This document shows positions 3,454 to 21,680 of a stretch of DNA of 33,951 nucleotides, piece after piece (within the stretch, counting starts at the first letter, position 1; every line of letters starts with the position of its first letter). The DNA is from a virus. The stretch lies in IMG/VR virus record IMGVR_UViG_3300042485_003195, positions 1 through 33,951 of that record, one strand, 5' to 3'. The notes beneath the pieces are model-generated. The model was not told where the DNA came from, did not search any database, and saw only the letters and a program-made list of their open reading frames with translations. Both the position numbers and the translations under genes were made by a program.

Positions 3454-3462
3454 AATATCTCT

Positions 3463-3541: not shown

Positions 3542-3548
3542 ATAATTT

Positions 3549-3776: not shown

Positions 3777-3788
3777 ATATTATCCTTT

Positions 3789-3862: not shown

Positions 3863-3868
3863 CTAACT

Positions 3869-3956
3869 TGGCGGAGAGTATAGGATTCGAACCTATGCGT
3901 CGGTTTCCCAACGACAGTTTAGCAAACTGCTGCCTTAACCACTCGGCCAACTCTCC
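3869..3956 (-). tRNA. tRNA-Ser(GCU)
   Basis: Type II with long variable arm, loop TTGCTAA, acceptor GGAGAGT/ACTCTCC, G73, encoded CCA. First gene of the operon that starts at the promoter 12 bases upstream. Confidence 0.95.
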
Positions 3957-3967
3957 ATTATGTTGCT

Positions 3968-3996
3968 ATTATATATGTTGGTAACGGTCCTGTCAA
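3968..3996 (-). promoter_or_regulatory. Sigma70-type promoter of the Ser-Thr-Pro-Leu-Ile2-Arg tRNA operon
   Basis: TTGACA (3996-3991), 17-base spacer, TATAAT (3973-3968). Transcription would start about 5 bases before the mature 5' end of tRNA-Ser. The spacer is one arm of an inverted repeat (see 3980-4019). Confidence 0.8.
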
Positions 3997-4019
3997 CAAT
4001 TACATTGTAGGACCGTTAC
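3980..4019 (-). repeat. Inverted repeat joining the end of the phosphoesterase gene to the tRNA promoter
   Basis: Perfect 11-base arms GGTAACGGTCC / GGACCGTTACC. One arm encodes the last residues of the upstream gene and the other forms the spacer of the tRNA promoter. It could act as a terminator-like hairpin or an operator; there is no clear T-run. Confidence 0.65.
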
Positions 4020-4602
4020 CGTTCTTAAAGCCTATTGTACCACCTTCCTCCACGATGCGTTTGATTGCATCCTCAAACAGTATAGGAGCAAAGTCTGTTT
4101 GTTCTACGCATACACAATGATAGCGCGGATCAATACGTTCTCGTACACCCCACTCCATGAACTCGGCAGTACTGCTGGCACGTTTCATTACACGGTTAGC
4201 ATGAAGGTGCCCGTGTATGTTGGTACCAAATCTACCCAGACTGTCTTCATGAATAGGAATATGACTCAGTATCATTCCGTTCATGACATGGTATGCACGT
4301 AGTTCACGAAAGTACTGTCTATATTCGTCATCACGGAAGATATCGTGGTTACCACGTATAAGCACCTTGTCACCATTAAGACGTGCCAGTGTACTCATTG
4401 CTCTACGGTTAATAACAACATCGCCCAGGTGATACACTTTGTCGTTTGGACGTACACGTTCGTTCCATGCTTTGATCATGAACTCGTCCATTTCTTCGGG
4501 ATTATCCCAAGGACGCAGTTTGGTCACCCCGTCGTTCCGCATGAAACGGCAAACGCCAGCATGACCAAAGTGAGTGTCGCTGACTAAAAATACTGCTGGC
4601 AT
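4000..4602 (-). CDS. Calcineurin-like metallophosphoesterase (200 aa)
   Basis: Carries the family's metal-binding motifs in order: SDTHFGH (residues 8-14), GDV (about 60), GNHD (about 84), a lone His (ILSHIPIH, about 115) and GHLH (about 131). These bind two metal ions and hydrolyse phosphomono- or diesters. Phages often carry such enzymes; substrates may be nucleotides, RNA ends or cyclic nucleotides, and the sequence does not say which. GGAG precedes the start. It is the first gene upstream of the tRNA-Ser operon; its last codons form a hairpin with that promoter. Confidence 0.9.
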   Translation of the reverse strand: MPAVFLVSDTHFGHAGVCRFMRNDGVTKLRPWDNPEEMDEFMIKAWNERVRPNDKVYHLGDVVINRRAMSTLARLNGDKVLIRGNHDIFRDDEYRQYFRELRAYHVMNGMILSHIPIHEDSLGRFGTNIHGHLHANRVMKRASSTAEFMEWGVRERIDPRYHCVCVEQTDFAPILFEDAIKRIVEEGGTIGFKNGNGPTM

Positions 4603-4615
4603 TTTGCTCTCCTTT

Positions 4616-4921
4616 CTATGCTATAAGCCACTCTTGTTTATCTCTATACTCGATGGATTCTGATCCATCGTACTCGTCAATTTTAAACGCTGTACCTTTG
4701 GTTATCCATCGAATCGATAATTTTTCGAGGTCTCCAAAATATTCATCAGGATATTTCAGTGCGAGATAGTGCTCAATCTTATCACGTTCGTTGGATTCAA
4801 TCCAGGCCACAATACTGGGATCAAATAGCAATTCTTCAATACCGTGCCATGAATACCAACCGGCTCCGTGCCCTGGAGAAACTATTATTGCTACCGAATC
4901 ATCACGAACAAGTTTATTCAT
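4616..4921 (-). CDS. Conserved phage protein of unknown function (101 aa)
   Basis: Begins MNKLVRDDSVAIIVSPGHGAGWYSW and contains 'KYPDEYFGDLEKLSIRWITKGTAFKIDEYDGSESIE'. I recall this pattern from many tailed phages without an assigned role. Soluble alpha/beta composition. It lies 5 bases after the preceding 51-aa gene and has no strong ribosome-binding site, so it is probably translationally coupled. Confidence 0.75.
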   Translation of the reverse strand: MNKLVRDDSVAIIVSPGHGAGWYSWHGIEELLFDPSIVAWIESNERDKIEHYLALKYPDEYFGDLEKLSIRWITKGTAFKIDEYDGSESIEYRDKQEWLIA

Positions 4922-4926
4922 TTATT

Positions 4927-5082
4927 TTACACACCGCAAGCTTCAAAAAATTTCTGGGTATCAAATCGTGGATTCATTTCTGCACAGGATGATGCCACTG
5001 CACAAGCAGCCTGCAGTCTGGCATGCGGATCCATGATAGCACGAACATATTTGGCCAACGATTCAAAATGTTTCTTGGACAT
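4927..5082 (-). CDS. Conserved small protein (51 aa), unknown
   Basis: Strong AAGGAG before the ATG. The product has an N-terminal helix, 'MDPHARLQAACAVASSCAEMNPRFDTQKFFEACGV', with four Cys and a 'NPRFD..KFFEACG' ending that I recall from small phage and proteobacterial proteins. Co-transcribed with its two neighbours. Confidence 0.7.
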   Translation of the reverse strand: MSKKHFESLAKYVRAIMDPHARLQAACAVASSCAEMNPRFDTQKFFEACGV

Positions 5083-5092
5083 ACTGGTCTCC

Positions 5093-5404
5093 TTAGGCTA
5101 ATTCAAGTTCACGAGCAGGGTAGGTGATGCTGCCATCAAACTCCAGCTGATCCCGCTCGAATTCGGTGAGGTAGTCATCGGCTACAATGTTAAAGTCAAC
5201 GATGTGCTCGCGGAAGTACGGGCTGTCTTCTTCGATCTTGTCACGCAACGCCATAACTGCCATGGTAACATCTTTACCCTTAAAATTCTTGACCACATAG
5301 TCGTTGCCACCCTTGGCTTTCCAGTATTGCGGGCACTCGCCCTTGCCGTCCCAATCGTGGGCGCCATAGTTTTCGTAAACTTGAGTAGTAATTAGCAGCT
5401 TCAT
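5093..5404 (-). CDS. Conserved phage protein (103 aa), unknown
   Basis: Begins MKLLITTQVYENYGAHDWDGKG and contains 'YWKAKGGNDYVVKNFKG', a signature I recall from several phage groups without known function. AAGGAG precedes the start, and a well-formed promoter with the repeated cassette lies 30 bases upstream. It heads the 5404-4000 transcription unit. Confidence 0.75.
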   Translation of the reverse strand: MKLLITTQVYENYGAHDWDGKGECPQYWKAKGGNDYVVKNFKGKDVTMAVMALRDKIEEDSPYFREHIVDFNIVADDYLTEFERDQLEFDGSITYPARELELA

Positions 5405-5433
5405 TTTGGCTCCTTGTTATTCACTATACATCT

Positions 5434-5462
5434 ATTATAGCAAAATGGCGAATTATGGTCTA
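5434..5462 (-). promoter_or_regulatory. Extended -10 promoter (cassette family)
   Basis: TAGACC (5462-5457), 17-base spacer, TGC-TATAAT (5439-5434). Nearly identical in spacer and -10 to the copies at 23813-23841 and 27749-27777. Upstream (5472-5518) lie GTTGC/GCAAC hairpins. Confidence 0.8.
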
Positions 5463-5471
5463 CCAAAATAT

Positions 5472-5518
5472 TTTGTTGCAAGAATAGCAACAAATGTTGC
5501 AAGAATAACAATATTGCT
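5472..5518 (-). terminator. GTTGC/GCAAC hairpin cluster, probable terminator
   Basis: Repeated ATTGC..GCAAT and GTTGC..GCAAC arms followed by a T-rich run on the minus strand, lying between tRNA-Gly(UCC) and the promoter. The same arrangement recurs at four other promoters in the window. Confidence 0.5.
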
Positions 5519-5535
5519 TAAAAGCAATAGAAATT

Positions 5536-5610
5536 TGGAGCGGGTGACAGGGATCGAACCTGCGACGAACAGCTTGGAAGGCTGACACTCTACCACTGAG
5601 TTACACCCGC
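5536..5610 (-). tRNA. tRNA-Gly(UCC)
   Basis: Acceptor GCGGGTG/CACCCGC, anticodon loop CTTCCAA, U73 (a phage or bacterial Gly feature), encoded CCA. Confidence 0.95.
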
Positions 5611-5620
5611 ATTAAAAAGT

Positions 5621-5695
5621 TGGCGGTCCCAAGGGGTAACGATCCCCTTCTTTCAGCGTGACAGGCTGATGTGCGTCCATGAACACTTTGAGACC
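5621..5695 (-). tRNA. tRNA-Asp(GUC), unusual T-loop
   Basis: Acceptor GGTCTCA/TGGGACC, G73, encoded CCA, anticodon loop CTGTCAC. The T-loop reads ATCGTTA, so position 54 is A rather than the near-universal T. The D-arm is also atypical. Confidence 0.85.
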
Positions 5696-5701
5696 TACTA
5701 C

Positions 5702-5776
5702 TGGCTCCAGAGGGTGGGATCGAACCACCGACCAAGAGATTAACAGTCTCCTGCTCTGCCGCTGAGCTACTCTGGA
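5702..5776 (-). tRNA. tRNA-Asn(GUU)
   Basis: Acceptor TCCAGAG/CTCTGGA, G73, anticodon loop CTGTTAA, encoded CCA. Confidence 0.95.
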
Positions 5777-5783
5777 ATAAACT

Positions 5784-5858
5784 TGGTGGGCGGTGAGAGG
5801 GTCGAACTCCCGACCTTGGCCTTGTAAGGGCCCTGCTCTACCACTGAGCTAACCGCCC
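5784..5858 (-). tRNA. tRNA-Val(UAC)
   Basis: Acceptor GGGCGGT/ACCGCCC, anticodon loop CTTACAA, A73, encoded CCA. Confidence 0.95.
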
Positions 5859-5860
5859 AA

Positions 5861-6145
5861 TTAAATATATCTATCTATATGTAATCCTACTGCACTTGCA
5901 CGTTGAACTAATCTTTGTTCACGAATACTTTCGCCGTAAGCATATTGTCTTAGAAATTCTGTATCCTTATTGTAGTTATAGTTTCGTAGCAACCTATGTG
6001 CTTCTTGAATAGCTAACAATTTTGCTAACTCTAACTGTTCTTGATGATCAATATCCTTGCGTTTCATGTCCATAAGAACTTGTAGTCGCTGACCAATCAT
6101 CTGGTAGTCGTTTAAGTATGCATGCGGTACACGATATATAACCAT
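5861..6145 (-). CDS. Hypothetical helical protein (94 aa)
   Basis: The start at 6145 (MVIYRVPHAYLNDYQ...) has AGGAG upstream; the longer frame runs into tRNA-Tyr. The product is mostly helical and charged (QVLMDMKRKDIDHQEQLELAKLLAIQEAHRLL). It fills the space between tRNA-Tyr and tRNA-Val, its stop 2 bases from the latter. No family recognised. Confidence 0.6.
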   Translation of the reverse strand: MVIYRVPHAYLNDYQMIGQRLQVLMDMKRKDIDHQEQLELAKLLAIQEAHRLLRNYNYNKDTEFLRQYAYGESIREQRLVQRASAVGLHIDRYI

Positions 6146-6157
6146 ACTACTCCTTAT

Positions 6158-6242
6158 TGGTGGGGATGGAAGGATTCGCACCTACTCACCCGAAAGAACT
6201 GATTTACAGTCAGCCGCCACTCTCTAACTTAGCCGCATCCCC
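6158..6242 (-). tRNA. tRNA-Tyr(GUA)
   Basis: Type II with long variable arm, anticodon loop CTGTAAA, acceptor GGGGATG/CATCCCC, A73, encoded CCA. The T-loop reads TGCGAAT. Confidence 0.93.
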
Positions 6243-6251
6243 ATTAAACAT

Positions 6252-6325
6252 TGGTGGAGGATAACAGAATCGAACTGTTACGAAGGCCTTGCAAAGGCCC
6301 CAGGCTCCCTTTACATCAATCCCCC
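6252..6325 (-). tRNA. tRNA-Ala(UGC)
   Basis: Acceptor GGGGGAT/ATCCTCC, anticodon loop TTTGCAA, A73, encoded CCA. The G3-U70 pair of Ala identity is present. Confidence 0.95.
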
Positions 6326-6327
6326 AA

Positions 6328-6576
6328 TTATTCTTTTATATCTTTAGAATCAACGCAAGTTCCGCCTTTGAATACATATATGTCGGAATCTATGCGTATT
6401 TGTTCGAAAACATGATTGTTTACACAGATATATGGATCTTTGTGATTTTCCATATAATAAAACGCTCCATATCCAATGCCCCCTAATACCATAAGTATGG
6501 GGATATATTTTAGGTACTTGACAATTTCGGGCATAGCACCCAAAATTTGTGGTAGCATACGGAGCAGTTCTTTCAT
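6328..6576 (-). CDS. Small single-pass membrane protein (82 aa)
   Basis: Start at 6576 (MKELLRMLPQ...) chosen because earlier Met codons lie inside tRNA-Glu; no clear ribosome-binding site is present. One hydrophobic segment (about residues 25-43, IPILMVLGGIGYGAFYYM) is followed by a C-terminal domain with two Cys that could form a disulfide. It ends 2 bases before tRNA-Ala. Function unknown. Confidence 0.5.
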   Translation of the reverse strand: MKELLRMLPQILGAMPEIVKYLKYIPILMVLGGIGYGAFYYMENHKDPYICVNNHVFEQIRIDSDIYVFKGGTCVDSKDIKE

Positions 6577-6589
6577 GCTTGTATTTATA

Positions 6590-6664
6590 TGGTACACCAT
6601 AGCGGAGTCGAACCGCTCTTGCAAGGATGAAAACCTTGAGTCCTAACCGATAGACGAATGGTGC
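6590..6664 (-). tRNA. tRNA-Glu(UUC)
   Basis: Anticodon loop TTTTCAT, acceptor GCACCAT/ATGGTGT with a G1-U72 wobble, A73, encoded CCA. Confidence 0.92.
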
Positions 6665-6671
6665 ATAACTT

Positions 6672-6746
6672 TGGTGCCCCCGGATGGAATCGAACCACCA
6701 TCACAAGTTTCGTAGACTCGTATCCTATCCGTTGAACGACAGAGGC
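6672..6746 (-). tRNA. tRNA-Arg(ACG)
   Basis: Acceptor GCCTCTG/CGGGGGC, anticodon loop CTACGAA, A73, encoded CCA. Needs A34-to-inosine editing by host TadA to read CGU/CGC/CGA. Confidence 0.92.
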
Positions 6747-6749
6747 AAA

Positions 6750-6885
6750 TTATATTGAAACACACTCCCAAGGGGCTGTCATTAACCCTCTTGTAACTTT
6801 GTACACCCTGTCGGGTAGCTACTCCCGTACTCTTGTACTCACCGTGAAGTTGGCACGGCAATGACAGAAATGTGCTTCAATATAA
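6750..6885 (-). ncRNA. Long-stem RNA element between structured RNA copy 2 and tRNA-Arg
   Basis: 15-base arms TTATATTGAARCACA / TGTGTTTCAATATAA (one G-U) enclose a second 8-bp helix CTGTCATT/AATGACAG (6867-6860 with 6783-6776) and a 16-base hairpin CGGG-AGTAGCTA-CCCG (6827-6812). The outer stem shares the AAACAC core with three other elements in the island. The inner hairpin has a near copy in the element at 7396-7494. No coding frame of quality. Confidence 0.55.
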
Positions 6886-6887
6886 TT

Positions 6888-7100
6888 GCTTGGGCCACGC
6901 TTTTCCACGGTCGCCCCCAAGCTGAGGTGTTGCCCTGTCCGAACACTAAAGGACTTTGCCGCGTAGTGTTCACGCTGCTCGGTTGTCTGAGGGGTTGCCT
7001 CGCTAAAGGTGCCCGAGCCACCTGGATTTTCTCGTGCACCACACGCCACTTTCAGGAAAGTGGTAACCGGAATCTTAGGGCGCCTCACATGGTCATTTAA
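6888..7100 (-). ncRNA. Putative structured RNA, copy 2
   Basis: Shares with 957-1135 the block CGGACAGGGCAACA-CTCAG (6941-6922), followed at once by a terminal hairpin (6922-6888, arms GCTTGGG/CCCAAGC), and GTGCA.GA.AAAATC (7039-7025) after a hairpin. It also holds a hairpin GAACACTA/TAGTGTTC directly before the first block. The spacing between blocks is about 47 bases longer than in copy 1. Long frames here have an odd Arg/Thr/Ser composition. The 406 bases 6747-7152 hold only this RNA and the stem element. Confidence 0.55.
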
Positions 7101-7152
7101 AAGTAGGAGCAATCTGTCTCTGAGACTTTTTCTCTCCACTTCCCTTAACACT

Positions 7153-7368
7153 TTATTCAGGCACACGATCGCCTGAAGCTGAATATTTTATGTAATAATA
7201 CATTATGGAACAAAAAGCCCACGCAGCAAAACCAAACGGAAGTATTAACAAAAACAGAAATAATACAGCCTGTTTTGTGAATGTAGTCTTTCTAACCAAC
7301 CATAAAGTTAACAAGAATGGAAAACTAAAAATGGCCAATGCAAGTAAGAAACTGAAAAAATATTCCAT
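7153..7368 (-). CDS. Small two-helix membrane protein (71 aa)
   Basis: Start at 7368 (MEYFFSFLLALAIF...) with AAGGA upstream. Two hydrophobic helices (about 3-23 and 34-54) and a short polar tail. It follows the long-stem element at 7396-7494. No family recognised. Confidence 0.6.
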   Translation of the reverse strand: MEYFFSFLLALAIFSFPFLLTLWLVRKTTFTKQAVLFLFLLILPFGFAAWAFCSIMYYYIKYSASGDRVPE

Positions 7369-7395
7369 AATTGTTGTTCCTTGTAAGTTTAACAT

Positions 7396-7494
7396 CCATA
7401 CAAAAACACTCTTGATCTCCAGTTTACTTTGCGGTAGCTAATCCGCTTTCAACCTTCTCCGATCCTGCGTCCAGTTTAGAGTGTTTTTATATGG
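7396..7494 (-). ncRNA. Long-stem element starting at the CCA of tRNA-Leu(UAG)
   Basis: 17-base arms CCATATAAAAACACTCT / AGAGTGTTTTTGTATGG with one G-U; the first three bases are the encoded CCA of the tRNA. The 65-base loop contains a hairpin GCGG-ATTAGCTA-CCGC (7446-7431) almost the same as the one in 6750-6885. It is not a classical terminator, and it separates the tRNA from the downstream membrane-protein gene. Confidence 0.6.
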
Positions 7495-7575
7495 TGCCTC
7501 GGGTCAGACTCGAACTGACACGCCTTTCAGCACTGGCTTCTAAGACCAGCGTGGCTACCATTACACCACCGAGGC
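7492..7575 (-). tRNA. tRNA-Leu(UAG)
   Basis: Type II with long variable arm, anticodon loop CTTAGAA, acceptor GCCTCGG/CCGAGGC, A73, encoded CCA that also forms the start of a long stem. Confidence 0.95.
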
Positions 7576-7646
7576 ACTTTGTTGCTTGATTGTTAATGAA
7601 CGTTTACTGCACTATTTCATTATTATACATAATTGTCTAATTCAGG

Positions 7647-7919
7647 TCAACAGCCGCACAACCAATCATCTATATCTTGTTCAGTGCAACCCAATTTGGC
7701 CGCAAGATCGCGACTGCAAGGAAAACCAAGTGTTTCACTTGCACCCGAGAAATATTGATCCACACACTGGCGATAATTGTCGTATGCATCCAACTTGCGA
7801 TTTGGCTTGTAATCAAACACATAGGTGTCAGTGCGGCCATCTGAATCTTCACCTACATAGTACGCAAAATCTGCGCCCCAATCGCGAGTTGATTGGGCTT
7901 TCATACGCTGCTGGGCCAT
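7647..7919 (-). CDS. Hypothetical phage protein (90 aa)
   Basis: The start at 7919 (MAQQRMKAQSTRDWG...) has AAGGAG upstream; an earlier Met at 7976 overlaps the promoter. The product is soluble, with 'DFAYYVGEDSDGRTDTYVFDY' in the middle and a Cys-rich end (WLCGC). It stands alone between a cassette promoter and tRNA-Leu. Function unknown. Confidence 0.65.
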   Translation of the reverse strand: MAQQRMKAQSTRDWGADFAYYVGEDSDGRTDTYVFDYKPNRKLDAYDNYRQCVDQYFSGASETLGFPCSRDLAAKLGCTEQDIDDWLCGC

Positions 7920-7947
7920 GTTGTCTCCTTTGCAAGTAACAAACCAT

Positions 7948-7976
7948 AGTATAGCAAAATGGGTCTTTTTGGTCAA
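7948..7976 (-). promoter_or_regulatory. Extended -10 promoter (cassette family)
   Basis: TTGACC (7976-7971), 17-base spacer ending TTTTGC, TATACT (7953-7948). A GCAAC/GTTGC hairpin with A/T-rich flanks (7998-8020) lies between it and tRNA-Met. Confidence 0.8.
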
Positions 7977-8025
7977 CTCTTTTATTTTTGTTATTAAAAA
8001 AGCAACAAGTTGCTATTTTGTTAAC

Positions 8026-8101
8026 TGGTAGTAGAGGTCAGACTCGAACTGACGATGGGCACCGTATGAAGGTGCTGCATTTGCCGCTATGCTACTCTAC
8101 C
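8026..8101 (-). tRNA. tRNA-Met(CAU)
   Basis: Anticodon stem GCACC/GGTGC with loop TTCATAC, acceptor GGTAGAG/CTCTACT (G1-U72), A73, encoded CCA. The non-Watson-Crick first pair hints at, but does not prove, an initiator; the GGG/CCC anticodon stem of initiators is absent. Confidence 0.85.
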
Positions 8102-8105
8102 ATGA

Positions 8106-8180
8106 TGGTACCCGAGGGTGGGAACGATCCACCGACCCCATCCTTATCAAGAATGTGCTCTACCACTGAGCTACTCGGGT
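8106..8180 (-). tRNA. tRNA-Ile(GAU), unusual T-loop
   Basis: Acceptor ACCCGAG/CTCGGGT, anticodon loop TTGATAA, A73, encoded CCA. The T-loop is ATCGTTC (A54), the same departure as in tRNA-Asp. Confidence 0.92.
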
Positions 8181-8189
8181 ATAATTTAC

Positions 8190-8264
8190 TGGCCGGTCCT
8201 GACAGATTCGAACTGCCGACAGCTGGTTTCGAAGACCAGAACTCTTCCGCTGAGCTAAGGACCG
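8190..8264 (-). tRNA. tRNA-Arg(UCG)
   Basis: Acceptor CGGTCCT/AGGACCG, anticodon loop CTTCGAA, G73, encoded CCA. Confidence 0.95.
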
Positions 8265-8266
8265 TT

Positions 8267-8342
8267 TGGTGCTGCCTCTTGGAATCGAACCAAGTTCAAC
8301 GGCTCTTCAAACCGCCGCTATGACCACATCAGCTAAAGCAGC
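8267..8342 (-). tRNA. tRNA-Phe(GAA)
   Basis: Acceptor GCTGCTT/AGGCAGC, anticodon loop TTGAAGA between GCGGT/GCCGT, A73, encoded CCA. Confidence 0.92.
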
Positions 8343-8343
8343 A

Positions 8344-8418
8344 TGGGGTATCCGACCGGGATCGAACCGGTGATACAAGATCCACAATCTTGGGTGTTGC
8401 CTCTACACTACGGACACC
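8344..8418 (-). tRNA. tRNA-His(GUG)
   Basis: Acceptor GTGTCCG/CGGATAC, C73, encoded CCA and an extra G at position -1 (8418) opposite C73, the His identity pair. Anticodon loop TTGTGGA. Confidence 0.95.
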
Positions 8419-8424
8419 ATTGTT

Positions 8425-8500
8425 TGGTAAGGGGTACAGGAGTTGAACCTGTGACACGCGGAATCAAAATCCGCTGCTCTACCAACTGAGCTAACCCCCA
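8425..8500 (-). tRNA. tRNA-Gln(UUG)
   Basis: Anticodon loop TTTTGAT, acceptor TGGGGGT/ACCCCTT with a weak U1-U72 end as in bacterial Gln tRNAs (U1-A72), A73, encoded CCA. Confidence 0.93.
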
Positions 8501-8501
8501 A

Positions 8502-8651
8502 TTAACTTGGTATTACTTTAGGAATGTAAGGAACATTCCTTGGCCCGTGACGCTGTTCAAAAAGTACACGGGCTTCTTGTAAATCCTTTGCGTATACACG
8601 GTCTTTTACATCACCCGACGGTGTACGAACTGTGGTTTCATACATTGGCAT
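8502..8651 (-). CDS. Small conserved-type phage protein (49 aa)
   Basis: Start at 8651 with AAGGAGATTGAT upstream; a Met two codons later is possible. The product MPMYETTVRTPSGDVKDRVYAKDLQEARVLFEQRHG.. resembles the small proteins of many phages that pair a beta strand with 'A.. .EA...FE.RYG'. It lies between a long-stem element and tRNA-Gln. Role unknown. Confidence 0.65.
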   Translation of the reverse strand: MPMYETTVRTPSGDVKDRVYAKDLQEARVLFEQRHGPRNVPYIPKVIPS

Positions 8652-8666
8652 ATCAATCTCCTTTAA

Positions 8667-8735
8667 CCATATAAAAACACACTGTGCAGATATTAGTAAT
8701 GGCCTCTGTGGGACAATCAATGTGTTTTTATATGG
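8667..8735 (-). ncRNA. Long-stem element starting at the CCA of tRNA-Lys
   Basis: Perfect 15-base arms CCATATAAAAACACA / TGTGTTTTTATATGG enclose a 39-base loop; the first three bases are the CCA of tRNA-Lys. Same arm sequence family and position as the element after tRNA-Leu(UAG). Confidence 0.6.
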
Positions 8736-8809
8736 TAGGTGCGGTGAGACTCGAACTCACAACTTATCGGTTAAAAGCCGATTACTCTAACCAGTTGAGT
8801 TACGCACCC
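8733..8809 (-). tRNA. tRNA-Lys(UUU)
   Basis: Anticodon loop CTTTTAA, acceptor GGGTGCG/CGCACCT, A73, encoded CCA. Confidence 0.95.
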
Positions 8810-8916
8810 ATTCTTACTCCGTACAGTTGCCACATCAATGCTGCAAGCTTGTGCTTGTTTTCATATGTCCAACCATATCTTAGTAAACCTCGTTTGTCAC
8901 TCTTGTCACTGTCCAT
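8800..8916 (-). CDS. Short protein overlapping tRNA-Lys (38 aa)
   Basis: AGGAG eight bases before the ATG at 8916, and a promoter 59 bases upstream. The product is MDSDKSDKRGLLRYGWTYEN.. with a helical 'HKLAALMWQLYGVRMGA' end. Its stop TAA lies 10 bases inside the 5' end of tRNA-Lys, so processing of the tRNA would cut the message. Function unknown. Confidence 0.5.
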   Translation of the reverse strand: MDSDKSDKRGLLRYGWTYENKHKLAALMWQLYGVRMGA

Positions 8917-8974
8917 AACAGGATCTCCTATTTAAAATTTTTATCTAACCACACCAACATTCCAATAATGAATA

Positions 8975-9004
8975 ATAATACAATCAAAGCCCCATTTTAG
9001 TCAA
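8975..9004 (-). promoter_or_regulatory. Sigma70-type promoter
   Basis: TTGACT (9004-8999), 18-base spacer, TATTAT (8980-8975), just after tRNA-Gly(GCC). Drives the 38-aa gene and tRNA-Lys onward. Confidence 0.65.
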
Positions 9005-9017
9005 CCTTTCTGTGTTA

Positions 9018-9092
9018 TGGAGCGGATAGTCAGATTCGAACTGACGACCTACACGTTGGCAACGTGTCGCACTACCACTGTGCTATACCCGC
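9018..9092 (-). tRNA. tRNA-Gly(GCC)
   Basis: Acceptor GCGGGTA/TATCCGC, anticodon loop TTGCCAA, U73, encoded CCA. Confidence 0.95.
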
Positions 9093-9098
9093 TTTGTA

Positions 9099-9193
9099 TG
9101 GTAGTAGGCCAGGGATTCGAACCCTGTCGTTCCAGCCCATCTGACCAGTCTCCAGAGCTTATAAGACTCCGCCGCATACCAATGCTGCCTACC
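9099..9193 (-). tRNA. tRNA-Ile(UAU), long-armed and atypical
   Basis: Acceptor GGTAGGC/GCCTACT (G1-U72), anticodon stem GGAGT/GCTCT with loop CTTATAA, T-arm CAGGG-TTCGAAT-CCCTG, A73 and encoded CCA. The region between anticodon stem and T-arm is about 27 bases, a type II variable arm, which is abnormal for Ile. The D-arm (GCAT-TGGT-ATGC) has a very short loop, and three extra bases separate D and anticodon stems. It might be a degenerate or relabelled Ser/Leu/Tyr-type tRNA. Confidence 0.75.
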
Positions 9194-11640: not shown

Positions 11641-12888
11641 TTATTTACTGTCAACAAAAATGTTCAACGGGCAAATAGTTGTTACTGCATAGTTTGGTGG
11701 ATCTACAACGTTACCAATTCTAAGATCGCACGCCACGCTGGTCACAACGTATGCTTGCTCTTTGGTCAAACCTTTGTTTAATTGCAGCCATTCAATCATT
11801 TGGATCAAACTGTTACGTGCAGCTTGATTCAAGTCTTGACTCAAGTTGGTCAATGGTGCAATTTTCTTGCTGTCAAGGTATGCCAGGTGCGGAGGAATCT
11901 CGCCTGCATTCTTTAATGGATACCCAATAGTTGCATGGAAAGAGTCTGGCTCTAACTGCTTGAGCTGACTGCCGCCTTCAAATTGCACTGACTTGAGGGT
12001 AGCTGCACCACCTTTTCTGATACTTGTTTCTACGGTAACAATACCATTCATTTCGATTGCAGTTCCTGAAACTTCACCATCGCCTTGTGCAAAGTGAACA
12101 TCACCTACATAAAGTCCGCAGCCATCAACATAGCATGGGAAAAGCAATGTTGTACCAGCTACCATTTGCTTGACGTCCATGTTGCCGCCGTTTTCACGCG
12201 GTGGAACCGAACGAAGGCATTTGTCTTTGTGTGATCCGTCAGGTCCACAAACTTTGGCAGGATGTGCTCCGGTTGGGAAAGGTTTGAGTGCAACACCACC
12301 GGCATCAGCAAGTTGTGCTTCACGTGCCAACCATTTATCAATTTCTGGTTCGCCGGGCATGGTGCCGATGGTTCCAGCAAAAGCTGAAATTGGAATTCTA
12401 ACTCCGGGGATTTGTTCGGATTCGGCATACAAACGATTTAATCTCCAGTTGGCAATGTAAGGATCAGGGAACATGTCGCTAAGAAAATTCATGCCTGGAA
12501 TAATAGTGGTCCATCCATGTCGTTCAGGTTCGACATCAATAATTTTTACTGCCAATACATCACCTCGTTTGGCTCCTTCGATGTAAATTGGCCCAGTCAT
12601 TGGATGAACCAGACTTAGGTCAACCGCAGTAACATCTTTGGGTCGAGCATTGATATCCAGTTCAGCATCTACTGCGTCTCTGGTATGGATTCTGATCAAT
12701 TCACCGGGTTTGGCTTTGGCTACCGGTTTGATAGCTGGATGTAAACGATTGAAACAGTTTGGATCCTGTTTACATTTGACGCCTTTTTTGGGCACCTCTA
12801 CAATGGGCTGCAGAGGTCGATCTGCAAAGGCAAGATTGGCAGCAGAGGCGATGGCCAAAGTTGCCAGAAGTTTTGAAATAAAACGCAT
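11641..12888 (-). CDS. Secreted acetamidase/formamidase family protein (415 aa)
   Basis: A Sec signal peptide (residues 1-22, ...ASAANLAFA) precedes a body with the acetamidase/formamidase hallmarks: 'PGELIRIHTRDAVDAELD', 'HPMTGPIYIEGAKRGDVLAVKI', 'MPGEPE', 'NGGNMDVKQMVAGTTLLFPCYVDGCGLYVGDVHFAQGDGEVSGTAIE'. The last is the active-site region of FmdA-type enzymes. These hydrolyse formamide or short amides to the acid and ammonia. Most known members are cytoplasmic, so an exported form is unusual. AGGAG precedes the ATG and a near-consensus promoter lies about 60 bases upstream. It is likely host-derived; a supply of ammonia and formate is one possible benefit. Confidence 0.88.
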   Translation of the reverse strand: MRFISKLLATLAIASAANLAFADRPLQPIVEVPKKGVKCKQDPNCFNRLHPAIKPVAKAKPGELIRIHTRDAVDAELDINARPKDVTAVDLSLVHPMTGPIYIEGAKRGDVLAVKIIDVEPERHGWTTIIPGMNFLSDMFPDPYIANWRLNRLYAESEQIPGVRIPISAFAGTIGTMPGEPEIDKWLAREAQLADAGGVALKPFPTGAHPAKVCGPDGSHKDKCLRSVPPRENGGNMDVKQMVAGTTLLFPCYVDGCGLYVGDVHFAQGDGEVSGTAIEMNGIVTVETSIRKGGAATLKSVQFEGGSQLKQLEPDSFHATIGYPLKNAGEIPPHLAYLDSKKIAPLTNLSQDLNQAARNSLIQMIEWLQLNKGLTKEQAYVVTSVACDLRIGNVVDPPNYAVTTICPLNIFVDSK

Positions 12889-12946
12889 GGTTTCTCCTAT
12901 GTGATAATGTGAAAAATTTTTTAGAAAACCTTGTAAGGTTTGTATG

Positions 12947-12975
12947 ATTTTACAAGTGATTTAGTTGATTGTCAA
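12947..12975 (-). promoter_or_regulatory. Extended -10 promoter for the formamidase operon
   Basis: TTGACA (12975-12970), 17-base spacer, TG-TAAAAT (12952-12947). Located right after the pqqA terminator, so formamidase is transcribed independently of pqqA. Confidence 0.75.
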
Positions 12976-13009
12976 CTATATTTATTTATGTCTATGTTCA
13001 AAATTCAAT

Positions 13010-13035
13010 AAAAAAGCCCTTTTGTTAAAGGGCTT
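13010..13035 (-). terminator. Rho-independent terminator of pqqA
   Basis: Minus-strand hairpin AAGCCCTTT / AAAGGGCTT (9 bp, 4-base loop) followed by a T-run, beginning 8 bases after the pqqA stop. Confidence 0.88.
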
Positions 13036-13042
13036 GTTTTGT

Positions 13043-13117
13043 TTATCGATTTGCGATATACATTGTGATTTCAAAACCAAAACGCATATCTTGTGCTGCT
13101 GGTGTGGTCCATGCCAT
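13043..13117 (-). CDS. pqqA: PqqA-like precursor peptide of pyrroloquinoline quinone (24 aa)
   Basis: A 24-residue peptide, MAWTTP at the start and RFGFEITMYIANR at the end, matching the short-form PqqA family (W-T-x-P...D-x-R-x-G-F-E-V-T-x-Y-x-A-N-R). The Glu16 and Tyr20 that the radical SAM enzyme PqqE cross-links to build PQQ are both present at the required E-x3-Y spacing. AAGGAG sits seven bases before the ATG. It is a single-gene unit with its own promoter, upstream hairpin and terminator. No pqqB-E genes are in the window, so host enzymes or genes elsewhere would be needed. It lies beside the formamidase. Confidence 0.88.
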   Translation of the reverse strand: MAWTTPAAQDMRFGFEITMYIANR

Positions 13118-13141
13118 GTTATTTCTCCTTGATTAAAATTA

Positions 13142-13160
13142 ACATACTGCATTAGTATGT
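13142..13160 (-). promoter_or_regulatory. Hairpin in the pqqA leader
   Basis: Perfect 7-bp inverted repeat ACATACT-AATGC-AGTATGT in the 5' leader, 25 bases before the pqqA start. Could be an operator or an RNA hairpin that tunes translation. Confidence 0.5.
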
Positions 13161-13191
13161 ATCATTATTTTACACAGTTGTGCAGTACATT

Positions 13192-13220
13192 TATATACGT
13201 ACAATCATGTTTTTTGTCTA
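13192..13220 (-). promoter_or_regulatory. Probable pqqA promoter
   Basis: TAGACA (13220-13215), 17-base spacer, TATATA (13197-13192), giving a leader of about 70 bases. Confidence 0.5.
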
Positions 13221-13230
13221 ATGATTTTGC

Positions 13231-13434
13231 TTAGGCTACGTTTTCTTTTTCCTGCGCGAAATCTTTTCCCCAATTGATTCTTAACCAAATTCTTTCGTGT
13301 ATATAATACAAAGTCATAAAGAGTGCATTAATCAATAATGATCCTCCAAGTCCGGTCCAATAGGCTAATACCAAAATACATATTATTCGCCATATAATAG
13401 TTTTCACTACGCTTCGAGTTTTTGTTTCTGTCAT
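13231..13434 (-). CDS. DUF2061 family membrane protein (67 aa)
   Basis: MTETKTRSVVKTIIWRII.. then two hydrophobic helices and '..YYIHERIWLRINWGKD' match the DUF2061 pattern (K-x-R-S-x-x-K-x-x-x-W-R...YY-x-HER-x-W-x-x-x-x-WG). Family members are small inner-membrane proteins of unknown function found in bacteria and marine phages. GGACAC precedes the ATG. It is transcribed toward pqqA. Confidence 0.85.
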   Translation of the reverse strand: MTETKTRSVVKTIIWRIICILVLAYWTGLGGSLLINALFMTLYYIHERIWLRINWGKDFAQEKENVA

Positions 13435-13511
13435 TTTGTGTCCTTGAACTTAATTTATGTATCTAATTTCATTTGTCCTAATTTATTTTGAGCCATGATC
13501 TTTTCTTGACG

Positions 13512-13534
13512 TAAAAAGACCCTTTTGGGTATTG
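13512..13534 (-). terminator. Rho-independent terminator after AhpD-like gene
   Basis: Hairpin ACCC-AAAA-GGGT followed by CTTTTTA, two bases after the stop codon. A short stem, so moderate strength. Confidence 0.6.
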
Positions 13535-13536
13535 AA

Positions 13537-14049
13537 TTAACTATTAAGTACCTTGGCCACCGACGTTATTACAGCAGCAATTCGACCAATGTCTCTCAAT
13601 TGTTCCACAGTATAACCCATTTTCTTCAAATTGTCATAATGTGATTTGACACAAAAATGACATTTACCAACAATACTTGCTGCAAGGCTGTATGCTTCAA
13701 ATCGTTCTTTGGTTGTACCACCATGAGTACTTATGGCATTCATACGTAGTTGTGCTGGCAATCCCTTTAAGTTAGGATCATCTGCCATTTCTATATACGG
13801 ATACCAAACATTATTCATGCCCATCAAGCTTGCTGCTGTCAGTGCTGCATCACGTTCTTTAGTATCTTGAATATTGTTTTGAATAAATGATACCAACTTG
13901 CCATTACCAGTAGCCATAGCGGCTGCTAAAGCGATGCAATTAGCTTCAGTAAAATCAAGTGTAGACCTATTGATAACATTATCAAGATTAAGTTTTGTGT
14001 CCTTAGCATATTCTGGCAATCCTTCTTTAATTTGTTCAACCCAACTCAT
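13537..14049 (-). CDS. AhpD-like alkylhydroperoxidase / carboxymuconolactone decarboxylase fold protein (170 aa)
   Basis: All-helical protein with the redox motif 'GKCHFCVKSHYDNLKKMG' (C-x2-C...H, about residues 131-148), the catalytic centre of AhpD. In AhpD the Cys pair reduces oxidised AhpC and can reduce hydroperoxides. 'CIALAAAMATGN..' lies earlier in the protein. Two genes further along is an AhpC, its usual partner, which supports a joint peroxide-detoxifying role. The start at 14049 has AAGGA-type sites upstream and overlaps the end of the 48-aa gene. Confidence 0.8.
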   Translation of the reverse strand: MSWVEQIKEGLPEYAKDTKLNLDNVINRSTLDFTEANCIALAAAMATGNGKLVSFIQNNIQDTKERDAALTAASLMGMNNVWYPYIEMADDPNLKGLPAQLRMNAISTHGGTTKERFEAYSLAASIVGKCHFCVKSHYDNLKKMGYTVEQLRDIGRIAAVITSVAKVLNS

Positions 14050-14182
14050 TTTCCTTTTCCTTTTCTTTTTGCTCTTTGTTATCTATCACCTGTTCTTCTT
14101 TCTTCTTAAAGATAGCGTCCCAATTTGAATCAAAAGTCTTTTGATCAACACTATACGGTCGAGGATTTGATCCTTTACTCAT
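14036..14182 (-). CDS. Conserved small phage protein 'SKGSNPRPYSVD' family (48 aa)
   Basis: Begins MSKGSNPRPYSVDQKTFDSNWDAIFKKK, a motif I recall from a very widespread small phage protein of unknown function, then an Glu/Lys-rich tail. Start overlaps the stop of the SGNH gene and its own end overlaps the AhpD gene by 14 bases, so the three are coupled. Confidence 0.75.
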   Translation of the reverse strand: MSKGSNPRPYSVDQKTFDSNWDAIFKKKEEQVIDNKEQKEKEKENELG

Positions 14183-14583
14183 CTTGTTTGATCCGCTAAT
14201 ATTTTATAACCCTTGTAGGTAGGATGCACGCCATCTCTACTTATGTTAGTTTCGGGTCTTGGAATCACGGTATCACCAAATTCTGATGCCACTTGCCGAA
14301 CTGCTTCAACTTGTTTTGGTTTTAGATATTGACTGGGTAACAACCAAAACACTCTATCAGCTTGGGCATTGGTGCGTAATGATCTTACCTGTCCTTCGGT
14401 GTTGATACCGAGGTCATTTGCACCCAAACTGATAATCAGTGTCCGGGTTGGCTTCAGCTTGTGCAAATGCTTTTTGTTCCAGTCGCTGGAGTTAATACCG
14501 CTTTTCGCAATGGCTTGACACTCAGGACGAACTTGACTAACGCCAACAGCAATACTATCTCCTACAATTAAACATTCAAGCAT
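14179..14583 (-). CDS. SGNH/GDSL-like hydrolase (134 aa)
   Basis: Carries block I 'VGDSIAVG' (residues 7-14), a 'LGANDLG' block (about 54-60) and the C-terminal 'SRDGVHPTYKGY' block with the Asp-His pair (about 114-125). These make the Ser-Asp-His catalytic set of SGNH esterases and acetylhydrolases. At 134 residues it is a minimal form. No signal peptide is present, so it acts inside the cell or in the virion. Possible targets are acetylated sugars or a cell-wall glycan. GGAG precedes the start. Confidence 0.82.
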   Translation of the reverse strand: MLECLIVGDSIAVGVSQVRPECQAIAKSGINSSDWNKKHLHKLKPTRTLIISLGANDLGINTEGQVRSLRTNAQADRVFWLLPSQYLKPKQVEAVRQVASEFGDTVIPRPETNISRDGVHPTYKGYKILADQTR

Positions 14584-14596
14584 TTGCTATCTCCTA

Positions 14597-15130
14597 TTAA
14601 AGTGTTTCGCCACCGACTGTGCGGTTGCAAGCGCAAAGCTCGCCAGTCTGTAACGCATCTAATACACGAAGTGTTTCTTCTGGGCTACGACCAACATTCA
14701 AGTTGTTGACAGTAACATGCTGGATAACGTTGTCTGGATCAACAATGAATGTTGCGCGAAGTGCAGCACCTGCGGGTGCGTAGAATACTCCCAGTTGATT
14801 GATTAGGCTACGTTCGTCACGTGCGGTATCAGCAAACTGAACATGTTTAATTTTCTTAAGGTCTTCGTGCGCTGCCTGCCATGCCAGTTTACAGAACTCG
14901 TTGTCTGTACTACCTGTGAGTAGAACAGCATCACGATCAGCAAAATCACCGTGTAGTTTATCATAAGCTACAATTTCTGTCGGGCATACAAATGTAAAAT
15001 CTTTTGGATAGTAAACGATTACTTTCCACTTACCTGCAAATGCTTGTTCTGTAATTGCAAAGAATTGATCACTTCCTGGGTTTACACCAGTTACGGTGAA
15101 CGATTCAATTTTGTCTCCTACTGTTTTCAT
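14597..15130 (-). CDS. ahpC: Peroxiredoxin AhpC (2-Cys), 177 aa
   Basis: Contains the peroxidatic centre 'DFTFVCPTEI' (Cys about residue 48) and the resolving Cys in 'TGELCACNRTVGG' near the C-terminus. The ending resembles AhpC of beta- and other proteobacteria with AhpD as reductant. It reduces H2O2 and alkyl hydroperoxides. Start at 15130 (MKTVGDKIESF...) has AAGGAG upstream; a longer frame begins inside the promoter region. A promoter lies 36 bases upstream. Likely acquired from a host. Confidence 0.95.
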   Translation of the reverse strand: MKTVGDKIESFTVTGVNPGSDQFFAITEQAFAGKWKVIVYYPKDFTFVCPTEIVAYDKLHGDFADRDAVLLTGSTDNEFCKLAWQAAHEDLKKIKHVQFADTARDERSLINQLGVFYAPAGAALRATFIVDPDNVIQHVTVNNLNVGRSPEETLRVLDALQTGELCACNRTVGGETL

Positions 15131-15165
15131 TGATTTCTCCTTATAAAAATGCTGCATTGCATTAT

Positions 15166-15195
15166 ATTATATATCCAGTAAATACCTATTGTCAA
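15166..15195 (-). promoter_or_regulatory. Sigma70-type promoter of ahpC
   Basis: TTGACA (15195-15190), 18-base spacer, TATAAT (15171-15166). Confidence 0.7.
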
Positions 15196-15269
15196 CGTAA
15201 TTTTAATAGATTTTAGCCGAATATTTTTTAATTGAAAGAATAGGAATTGTCTATTAAATACTGTCAAAG

Positions 15270-16316
15270 TTATTGGTCAAACTGTTTTAAAAACTGATCA
15301 AATGGATTTTTAGAAACATCAAGATTAAAAAAATGTTCGGCGTTCTTTACTCTTCTTGAATATGTTTCCTGCCAAACAGTTTCATGATCCATGTGCATCC
15401 AGAGATCTATACTTGTAACTAATTTATCTATTCTCATATTCAAATCCGGTTCATTGTCGTAATCATGATTTATGATATCATCAAATACGTCAAATCCCAG
15501 TTTCCTTAATAAATCTATTGTACCAGTTCCAGACAAAGTAACAAAAATCTGACCTGTGGCAATAGGTTTAAAAATTTTTTCATCAAGAAAACTAATATCA
15601 TAATGATGTGCAGTTACAATATTCAAGTACGAATCATGTAATCCAGGATGATCTAATCTTAACATATCATCACCATACTTGGCATCTTTTCTATCTATTT
15701 TTAATGGTAGCAAGTTTTGATACTTTGCAACCAATGTTTGCATTTCTGGTAAATCGTAATGGTCATCGGCAGCGGTGCCGTTAAATGAATAAAGAATATT
15801 TTGAAAATAAGGTTTTTGTACAAACTGATCTAACAGTTTAATTCTGTGATATCTACAAAGATTATTAAGACAGCTTGCTGAATATAGCCTTGATTGTGCA
15901 AATTTTGATGTATCTAATTTCCATGCCGCATAATGTTTTTGCGGGCCTGAAAGGAACGCATACCAATAATAAGGATAATACAATGTATTATTAGCAAGTT
16001 CATAGTAACTGCCGTCCCCGGTAATACTAAGAATAGTGGCATCAGGTAAATTATCTTGAATGTAATCGATTATTCTATGCATGTTATCCGAAACATGATC
16101 GCATGCAACATACAATATACATTTTGAATTTCTTGATCTTAGAATATCTATAACAGTTTCTAATCCTAATGCTTTCACATAGTATGAACCAAATATGTCT
16201 TGATTGCTAACTATATCAATATCAAACTTATAATTGCCACTTGCTTTTTTGAGATAGTATGCAATTGGTCTACCATATAATATGTCTGATTTTTCTTGAA
16301 GAGTTCTTAAATTCAT
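15270..16316 (-). CDS. Glycosyltransferase-like protein (348 aa)
   Basis: The C-terminal part contains 'ISFLDEKIFKPIATGQIFVTLSGTGTIDLLRKLGFDVFDDIINHDYDNEPD' (about residues 235-285). This resembles the acceptor/nucleotide-sugar region of fucosyltransferase-type (GT10-like) and related phage glycosyltransferases. The N-terminal half has an alpha/beta layout with 'CILYVACDHV'. It may glycosylate virion or phage DNA. The codon use is more A/T-rich than the neighbouring ahpC. No clear ribosome-binding site before the ATG. Confidence 0.55.
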   Translation of the reverse strand: MNLRTLQEKSDILYGRPIAYYLKKASGNYKFDIDIVSNQDIFGSYYVKALGLETVIDILRSRNSKCILYVACDHVSDNMHRIIDYIQDNLPDATILSITGDGSYYELANNTLYYPYYWYAFLSGPQKHYAAWKLDTSKFAQSRLYSASCLNNLCRYHRIKLLDQFVQKPYFQNILYSFNGTAADDHYDLPEMQTLVAKYQNLLPLKIDRKDAKYGDDMLRLDHPGLHDSYLNIVTAHHYDISFLDEKIFKPIATGQIFVTLSGTGTIDLLRKLGFDVFDDIINHDYDNEPDLNMRIDKLVTSIDLWMHMDHETVWQETYSRRVKNAEHFFNLDVSKNPFDQFLKQFDQ

Positions 16317-20259: not shown

Positions 20260-20637
20260 TCAAGGGGTGCAATCTATCCAGATAGGATCTTTGTAAACTG
20301 TATTAGGATCTGCTTTCATTTTGTCAACATATTTAAAAAAATTAGGATGGAAAATATATTTTTCGGTTGCTCCCGGAAACATAAATTTGAATCCAGTTTG
20401 TATAGTCACCAATTGACCTTGTGAAGTGGCAACAGTTTCGCGTAATTCAGTTGCAACTACCTTACCAGATCTTAGATCTTCTGCTAATTCATTGGTAGCT
20501 TCACTCAGGTCCAAATCGTATTGTATCAGTTCCATGTTCTCTAATCGATATCTTCCCCAGTCTATTTCGTTAACTAATTTTGTATCTCCAGTTTCCATAG
20601 TGATAACATGAAAAGGTGCGTGATATTCAAAAGCCAT
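20260..20637 (-). CDS. Hypothetical protein (125 aa)
   Basis: GGAG lies upstream of the ATG. Beta-rich N-terminus (EYHAPFHVITMETGDTKLV), helical middle (SEATNELAEDLRSGKVVATEL), then 'QGQLVTIQTGFKFMFPG'. First coding gene after the tmRNA terminator. Likely paralogue of the downstream neighbour. Confidence 0.65.
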   Translation of the reverse strand: MAFEYHAPFHVITMETGDTKLVNEIDWGRYRLENMELIQYDLDLSEATNELAEDLRSGKVVATELRETVATSQGQLVTIQTGFKFMFPGATEKYIFHPNFFKYVDKMKADPNTVYKDPIWIDCTP

Positions 20638-20667: not shown

Positions 20668-20697
20668 AAAAAAAATTAGGGCATAAAAATGCCCTAA
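20668..20697 (-). terminator. Rho-independent terminator after the tmRNA
   Basis: 9-bp hairpin TTAGGGCAT / ATGCCCTAA followed by eight T on the minus strand, a strong terminator. Confidence 0.92.
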
Positions 20698-20733
20698 ACT
20701 ATTTTGGGTAACAAGGCATAGTTGCCCCGGAGA

Positions 20734-20775
20734 TTACGCTGCGAGAGCGAAGACCTCGTCGTTAGCTGCGTTTGC
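20734..20775 (-). other. tmRNA peptide-tag reading frame
   Basis: Resume codon GCA, then ANAANDEVFALAA and TAA. The ...ALAA end is the usual ClpXP/ClpAP degron. The preceding ATAACT resembles the alignment element before known resume codons. Confidence 0.9.
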
Positions 20776-20861
20776 AGTTATAGTTTTGCTTCTTTTACGG
20801 AGATCGCCTACCGTGTAGATCCTTTGAATACTTGCTCGTCAATCGATACTATTTCCGGCCC

Positions 20862-20993
20862 ATCAAAAAGCATTTTCAAGGTGTCCCTCTCCGATACAAC
20901 GAGGAATCGCTAACCTCGTCTGCCTATTCCACTCTTATCAGCTTTCGCATACTTACCGTGGTGGCTCGTTATATCATCGGGCAAAATGCTTTT
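20862..20993 (-). other. Intervening segment of the permuted tmRNA
   Basis: Spacer expected to be cut out, leaving the two tmRNA pieces. It holds the long closing stem with arms AAAAAGCATTTT, and an internal hairpin ACGAGG/CCTCGT with loop TTAGCGATT. Confidence 0.75.
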
Positions 20994-21071
20994 TGGTGGA
21001 CCGGCCGGGTACCGCCCCCGGGTCTTGTCCGATCTTTCTTCTTAGGCATTGTACTACAATTCTAATCTATG

Positions 21072-21680
21072 TTATTTACTTACCACAAATTGTGGATTAT
21101 GAATGTAACATACTTGTTTTTTTGGTATGTAAGTGACCAGCAGAACTCGATCTTTATCTGGATGATTGTGTACGTGTCCTTTGAATGCCGAGCCTTCGGG
21201 TTTGACCTGTACCGGAATCTCTCCGATCCAACCATCAATACCTTGTGCTTCTTCTTGGGCATCGGAAAATCTAACCGGTAAAGAATAGTACGAACCCACT
21301 GCTTGAATGGCCATTTCTTCGCCGGCCATGCCCATGTGTGTTTTATTGTATATTACTTCTTTAATATAGTCTTCACACATGTCATACGAAATGCCACCAA
21401 TTTGCATCTTTTGAATCATTTCGTACAATCTCTGTGCCTGTGCCGGAATATTGTTGGCAAAAGGTTTAGAGTTATAAAAGTTACACCAATTTTCAAAGGT
21501 GCCAGGTATGCCTTGTTGCCGCATCTCTAACCAAGTTTCTTTTGCAGATCCTACCTGCCTTACATCAAACGCTTTGCAATTTTGCCCAGCCACATTCAGC
21601 AGCTGAGTTGAATATTTAGGCCATTCGCGACGTGCGCGATGTACTACACCTTTGAAATTTTTAGCTGTAAGTTTGATCAT
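21072..21680 (-). CDS. MjaI-like restriction endonuclease family protein (202 aa)
   Basis: Pattern 'EWPKYSTQLLNVAGQNCKAF' (about residues 19-38), 'YDMCEDYIKEVIYNKTHMGMAGEEMAI' and 'EEAQGIDGWIGEIPVQVKP' (about 143-161) matches my recollection of the MjaI type II restriction endonuclease family. The D...E-x-Q/K-V-K core, as in PD-(D/E)XK nucleases, is 'GIDGWIGEIPVQVKP'. Homologues occur in several T4-like phages without a partner methylase. It may degrade host DNA or guard against other phages. Adjacent to the tmRNA acceptor piece. Confidence 0.7.
   Translation of the reverse strand: MIKLTAKNFKGVVHRARREWPKYSTQLLNVAGQNCKAFDVRQVGSAKETWLEMRQQGIPGTFENWCNFYNSKPFANNIPAQAQRLYEMIQKMQIGGISYDMCEDYIKEVIYNKTHMGMAGEEMAIQAVGSYYSLPVRFSDAQEEAQGIDGWIGEIPVQVKPEGSAFKGHVHNHPDKDRVLLVTYIPKKQVCYIHNPQFVVSK

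Follow-up and report, generated by a model that had tools for sequence, protein, structure and literature searches.

A circularly permuted phage tmRNA gene of a viral lineage, with an intervening segment that probably serves as a gene slot in related phages

The window, a 33,951-nucleotide stretch of viral DNA (IMG/VR record IMGVR_UViG_3300042485_003195), carries at positions 21058-20668 of its minus strand a complete circularly permuted tmRNA gene, including the terminator. The permuted tmRNA model (RF04321, tmRNA_permuted) matches it over positions 1-213 of 213 with 116.9 bits against a cut-off of 47 (E 2e-22), and chance is therefore excluded. The gene is flanked by the ORFs 21072-21680 and 20260-20637, which share its strand. 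Its parts are as follows.

20994-21058, minus strand: acceptor piece, the first-transcribed 3' tRNA-like half with its encoded CCA, from the RF04321 and RF01849 alignments
21005-21021, minus strand: T arm CCGGG-GGCGGUA-CCCGG with alpha-type loop, from the alignment
20994-21004, minus strand: acceptor 3' strand CCGGUCC with A73-CCA, from the sequence
20862-20993, minus strand: intervening segment (ITS), 132 nt, non-coding, presumably removed on processing; from its borders and the ORF test (p=0.85)
20983-20993, minus strand: 5' strand of the helix that closes the ITS, AAAAGCAUUUU, from fold and duplex
20866-20876, minus strand: 3' strand of the helix that closes the ITS, AAAAUGCUUUU, from fold and duplex
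20699-20861, minus strand: coding piece, made up of the 5' tRNA-like half, a D-loop-like region, the tag and the 3' hairpin; 3' border approximate
20855-20861, minus strand: acceptor 5' strand GGGCCGG, from the sequence, with the predicted RNase P site at 20862/20861
20734-20775, minus strand: tag reading frame ANAANDEVFALAA with stop UAA, from the translation
20798-20813, minus strand: CGG...CCG hairpin 5' of the tag, at the position of pseudoknot 1, from the RF04321 alignment
20699-20721, minus strand: 3' hairpin CUAU-GCCUUGUUACCCAAA-AUAG, beta_tmRNA-like, from the RF01850 alignment
20668-20697, minus strand: intrinsic terminator, 9-bp stem and T8, from the sequence

The first-pass annotation had recognised a permuted two-piece tmRNA here without giving its strand, and its anatomy is borne out: all landmarks are present on the minus strand, the acceptor piece with its CCA precedes the coding piece, and the acceptor stem forms across both in 7/7 pairs, between CCGGUCC (20998-21004) and GGGCCGG (20855-20861). 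These pairs include G3-U70, the alanine identity pair. The positions given for the last base of the encoded CCA (20994), for G1 of the coding piece (20861) and for the 132-nt spacer (20862-20993) are exact, and the tag had been read correctly: 20775-20734 translates as ANAANDEVFALAA followed by a stop, a frame that runs from an alanine resume codon to hydrophobic residues. The proposed span of 20700-21045 locates the gene properly and is slightly too small in extent, as the model match starts at 21058 and the terminator ends at 20668. Several non-standard pairs appear in the model alignments, outside the acceptor and T stems. ARAGORN lists 28 tRNAs in the window and does not call this tmRNA.

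The 28 tRNA genes lie at 1156-9193 on the minus strand and cover all 20 amino acids; 25 are confirmed by Rfam, and Cys (2764), Asp (5621) and Ile-tat (9099) are called by ARAGORN only. The ORF directly upstream of the tmRNA, 21072-21680, is a MjaI-type restriction endonuclease gene (PF09568, E 2.4e-23; PADLOC REase_II). A MjaI-type gene 61% identical to it occurs at L002 and L004 (contigs G001 and G003) together with a different, alpha-type permuted tmRNA, which has the tag ANENFALAA and an ITS of 31 nt and lies far from the MjaI-type gene. Host-like genes are found at 11641-16316, encoding an acetamidase/formamidase (PF03069), a carboxymuconolactone decarboxylase family protein and a GDSL-like esterase; the ORF 14597-15157 is presumably peroxiredoxin-like.

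With respect to its type, the window tmRNA combines features of two families. In the Rfam searches that had been proposed, alpha_tmRNA (RF01849) gives a match, 89.3 bits against a cut-off of 50, and beta_tmRNA (RF01850) yields 82.7 or 81.9 bits, which falls under its cut-off of 84. The T-loop GGCGGUA, the D-region AAAUAG.AUCGA and the permuted order are those of alpha_tmRNA; however, only model positions 40-270 of 355 are matched, and the AACAGAA-type (ACCUGGCAACAGAA-type) motif of the 3' end, present in many other viral sequences, is absent from the window. The 3' hairpin UGCCUUGUUACC and the tag end FALAA resemble beta_tmRNA, whose model is matched to its 3' end, whereas the T-loop and D-region are not beta-like. 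An RNA that mixes alpha-like traits (T-loop, D-region) with beta-like ones (3' hairpin, tag end) points to no single host group. The expectation that the tmRNA would give a clue to host lineage does not hold, because the alpha and beta scores are close and the nearest kin are viral; host assignment from tmRNA type was accordingly rejected, and the view that the type reveals the host of the window virus is not supported. A mismatch between tmRNA type and known host is also described for phage Melnitz in the available part of PMC9004378.

The placement among viral sequences follows from pattern searches and from a tree. The T-loop and acceptor pattern of the window retrieves 16 stretches from viral contigs and 34 from genomes, and a matching 5' half is present in 0/34 of the latter. 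In the collections searched, the clade consists of 7 distinct sequences, the window included, all of them on viral contigs. The first pattern gave L135 (identical in sequence to L141, on contigs of 364 and 166 kb), L136, L138 and L146 (all three of one sequence, L138 being truncated), L139, L142 and L145, and a second pattern gave L184. Within the clade the acceptor pieces are 90-100% identical and the first 52 bases of the coding piece 85-100% identical; the ITSs, of 64, 70, 91, 94, 107, 132 and 208 nt, are unrelated segments. In the tree of 157 permuted tmRNAs, a branch with 100/99 support sets 62 bacterial and 6 viral rows against 80 viral rows, the 7 clade rows and 2 bacterial rows; a single change accounts for the clade label (support 78/88), and L248, a sequence from Burkholderiales, is placed near the clade. 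Since bacterial sequences entered the tree by selection, the term viral lineage holds for the collections searched. BLAST with the coding piece returns 0/369 gammaproteobacterial-class and 0/385 alphaproteobacterial-class genomes, which shows little, as these searches had no positive control; against the collected loci, the same query finds the six other clade members at E of 4e-16 or below and the best bacterial sequence at 2e-6. The T4-type capsid gene gp23 is detected in 1/23 records, on the 364-kb contig of L135 (E 8e-100), and is absent from most fragments searched, the window included. The window tmRNA is an ordinary, intact phage permuted tmRNA and a new member of this lineage. An alphaproteobacterial genome (L288, G127) contains two permuted tmRNAs, the second of which (84 bits) sits on a long branch among viral sequences and is perhaps a prophage copy.

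The ITS of the window is non-coding. Its longest ATG frame has 8 codons (p=0.85 against dinucleotide shuffles), so that an ORF filling the segment was rejected, and the coding use of this position described below is therefore seen only in relatives. BLAST finds no homolog of the segment among all collected segments and loci or in 50,697 phage records, and no Rfam family matches it. The whole ITS folds better than expected (z -3.86), whereas the inner 104 nt do not do so significantly (z -1.72), and hence the signal sits in the closing helix. In this helix the two ends of the window ITS pair with each other and so continue the acceptor stem. For 63 viral segments among the matches listed, the duplex between the two ends has a mean energy of -13.1 kcal/mol versus -5.4 for ends swapped between loci. 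The window holds the same slot as its relatives, with a unique, non-coding occupant of 132 nt. Taken together, we regard it as very probable that this is a phage-encoded permuted tmRNA of a viral-contig lineage, in which the ITS, enclosed by a helix that continues the acceptor stem, is a slot with interchangeable content. The T4-late-promoter-like motif TATAAATA is not enriched (3 found, 2.57 expected). Stretches resembling a tRNA T arm are seen in the ITS of L142 (about 8820-8911) and of L007 (GGGTTCGAACCC; CGGTTCGAATCCG); ARAGORN calls no tRNA in L007.

Judged from this arrangement, one minus-strand transcript would run from the acceptor piece through the ITS and the coding piece to the terminator. 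The cut ahead of G1 (20861) would be made by host RNase P, host 3' processing would leave the acceptor piece ending at CCA (20994), and the ITS would be lost, with the two pieces held together by the acceptor stem and the adjoining helix. The RNA is expected to be charged by host AlaRS via G3-U70 and delivered to stalled ribosomes by host SmpB and EF-Tu; SmpB of the host is invoked because SmpB (PF01668) is found in 0/16 phage records searched, the window not being among them. The tag ANAANDEVFALAA, ending in ALAA, would mark the product for host ClpXP-type proteolysis. Its AANDE...ALAA pattern is that of the E. coli tag and would suit ClpXP-type proteases of the host.

Other readings of the window RNA have to be considered. 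It could be a host-type tmRNA recently acquired from an alpha- or betaproteobacterial host, with the type naming that host, as the alpha score above the cut-off, the beta-like tag end and 3' hairpin, and the proximity of L248 to the clade might suggest. This is quite unlikely, as the 100/99 branch groups the clade with viral tmRNAs, the 5' half is missing from all 34 genome stretches that bear the T-loop/acceptor pattern, and the sampled genomes gave no coding-piece hit, albeit in searches run without a positive control. The better-than-shuffled fold of the whole ITS would also be compatible with a functional small RNA of 132 nt released on processing; this remains doubtful, since the folding derives mostly from the closing helix and the segment has neither an Rfam match nor a relative. 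Instead of working as a tmRNA, the phage RNA might be a decoy or a remnant by which SmpB of the host, or its tmRNA machinery, is titrated. This has a parallel in the TLD-only form of phage DS6A, which inhibits tmRNA according to the available text of PMC4131195 and PMC11915505, and would fit the lack of SmpB in the phage records searched. However, no functional landmark is missing from the window, tag frame, stop and terminator included, and both halves are conserved across the clade, which makes a decoy highly improbable. An intact phage tmRNA with an exchangeable ITS is the reading retained here.

The wider IMG/VR viral sample was chosen by the T-loop/acceptor pattern and comprises at least 120 matches, from which a parser recovered at least 90 loci, the window included; loci with ill-fitting stems or D-region were dropped. 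On re-testing with Infernal, 38/38 viral records exceed the RF04321 family cut-off. Counts are taken from the matches listed and are not a census (90 loci; 96 unique and 93 unique viral ITSs; 52 of at least 80 nt). Melnitz and Roseobacter phage DSS3P8 were added by hand to the 52-segment frame test; Rhodobacter phage RcSimone-Hastad and Sinorhizobium phage Phosso were parsed and left out. Among named phages, a permuted tmRNA gene is present in Ruegeria phage V10 and Rhodobacter phages RcXuper and RcRudolph by Infernal, and in DSS3P8 and RcSimone-Hastad by parsing; the annotation of these five has no tmRNA feature in the stretches examined. In Phosso (L318, 1029-1442), the parser delimits an ITS of 410 nt with a tag-like stretch, the start of the coding piece being unsure.

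In many of these relatives the ITS contains an open frame. Among the matches listed, the longest ATG frame exceeds dinucleotide shuffles (p<0.05) in 21/52 viral segments of at least 80 nt. Counts are also given by family because some slot sequences are mutually related, and on this basis 15/43 families are significant. The antisense control gives 1/52. As a small control, 40 alphaproteobacterial regions picked for long span provided 6 segments of at least 80 nt, of which 0/6 are significant at p<0.05. A Shine-Dalgarno-like motif accompanies 15/21 significant segments versus 7/31 of the others. Thirteen of the 21 significant frames stop within the segment, 10/13 of them leaving a gap of one base between stop and G1, and 8/21, Melnitz among them, run into the coding piece. 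The frame of Melnitz, unannotated and located in the tmRNA gene (L320 4985-5437, corresponding to MZ577097 45984-46436), has 54 codons, 41 of them in the ITS (MZ577097 46096-46221), and GGAG before its ATG.

One case within the clade is the 208-nt ITS of L135, in which a Shine-Dalgarno-like AAGGA and an ATG open a frame of 64 codons that leaves one base between its UGA and G1. The same 64-aa protein is found in the ITS of other tmRNA types, all RF04321-confirmed, at 97% (L188), 89% (L189) and 73% (L190) identity, as well as outside tmRNAs, in free-standing ORFs at 52% identity (L191-L195; RF04321 finds no tmRNA in these five records). L135 and L188 share 94% of the segment, whereas their acceptor pieces, compared without gaps, agree at only about 54%, and segment and halves therefore appear to have recombined. 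The ITS frame of L020 is Pfam DUF6356 (E 4e-11), and free-standing relatives follow the tmRNA at a distance of 1.6-1.9 kb downstream at L022 and L122. The ITS frame of L084 is 67% identical to annotated Melnitz gp85, the gene immediately upstream of the Melnitz tmRNA. In total, three ITS-frame families are also found outside tmRNAs. Rates of change were measured in the three ITS-ORF families that had accumulated sufficient changes: dN/dS values are 0.013/0.322 for L135-L188, 0.155/0.928 for L135-L190, 0.086/1.008 for L020-L123 and 0.146/1.415 for L042-L124, and two synonymous changes are the sole difference between the frames of L083 and L091. This pattern of substitution indicates that several ITS frames encode conserved proteins under purifying selection. 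Apart from DUF6356 in L020, no slot protein has a match below E 0.001 in Pfam or PHROGs; that of L062 has two PHROG matches at E 0.002-0.003. Against named phages, tblastn finds no match for the L135 family, the L020 family or L062, and for the Melnitz frame only its four isolates. The structure model of the 64-aa protein is poor (pLDDT 56).

That the frames of relatives arise by chance, or as by-products of the conserved UUUUGAU end, might be argued from the many that stop in the UGA of this 3' motif, from the 31/52 ITSs whose frame does not exceed shuffles, and from the selection of the sample by pattern. It is nonetheless very unlikely that they are not genes, given a single significant antisense segment among 52, dN of 0.013-0.155 against dS of 0.32-1.42 in three families, the DUF6356 assignment, the resemblance of the L084 frame to gp85, and the free-standing relatives of the 64-aa frame. 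The slot itself is well supported.

Phages with such a slot would use the precursor, or the segment once released, also as an mRNA from which the slot gene may be translated. A frame that reaches G1 without a stop would become a non-stop message on processing, itself a tmRNA substrate, and a self-regulating loop is conceivable; this loop is put forward as a conjecture. The non-stop step is reminiscent of arfA control in E. coli, as far as this is covered in the available part of PMC10107115.

Permuted phage tmRNAs are of a known kind, and the coding slot in relatives is the new part. In its available text, PMC9004378 describes the two-piece tmRNA of Melnitz and counts 53 two-piece tmRNAs among public phage genomes; since such tmRNAs have already been published, and at least 120 pattern matches occur in IMG/VR, the phage context is not unusual, contrary to the first-pass annotation. 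The corresponding part of PMC11915505 gives 79 bacteriophage tmRNA sequences of all forms. Melnitz (a cultured Methylophilales phage of a marine host, MZ577097, with no SmpB match in its record) resembles the window in having a permuted tmRNA with CCA, ITS and coding piece, but its tmRNA is of a different type and its 142-nt ITS has the open frame into the coding piece, whereas the window ITS has none. An intron form with a homing endonuclease, and permuted forms with tRNA-Ala or a repeat in the ITS, are described in PMC11915505 as far as its text is available. They likewise place extra content, absent from the mature RNA, inside the tmRNA gene; in the intron form, however, the protein gene lies in a group I intron and not in the ITS of a permuted form. 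Small protein genes in the ITS of a permuted tmRNA are not mentioned in that part of the text, and no earlier description of them was found in titles and abstract openings of the open-licence literature. The available part of PMC10117765 deals with the tmRNA of S. meliloti and its tag frame.

Considering these findings together, it is likely that the ITS of phage split tmRNAs is an exchangeable gene slot, that the precursor is both pre-tmRNA and mRNA, and that small genes move between the slot and the neighbourhood of the tmRNA, with a self-regulating loop as a possible consequence. Phage tmRNAs are easily overlooked, as illustrated by the one in the window, missed by ARAGORN, and by the cultured Ruegeria and Rhodobacter phages that lack a tmRNA feature. 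If the ITS is a gene slot, tmRNA processing and the expression of small phage proteins would be tied together in one transcript, and genome annotation would be missing a class of small genes that phages keep hidden within the gene of a structural RNA.
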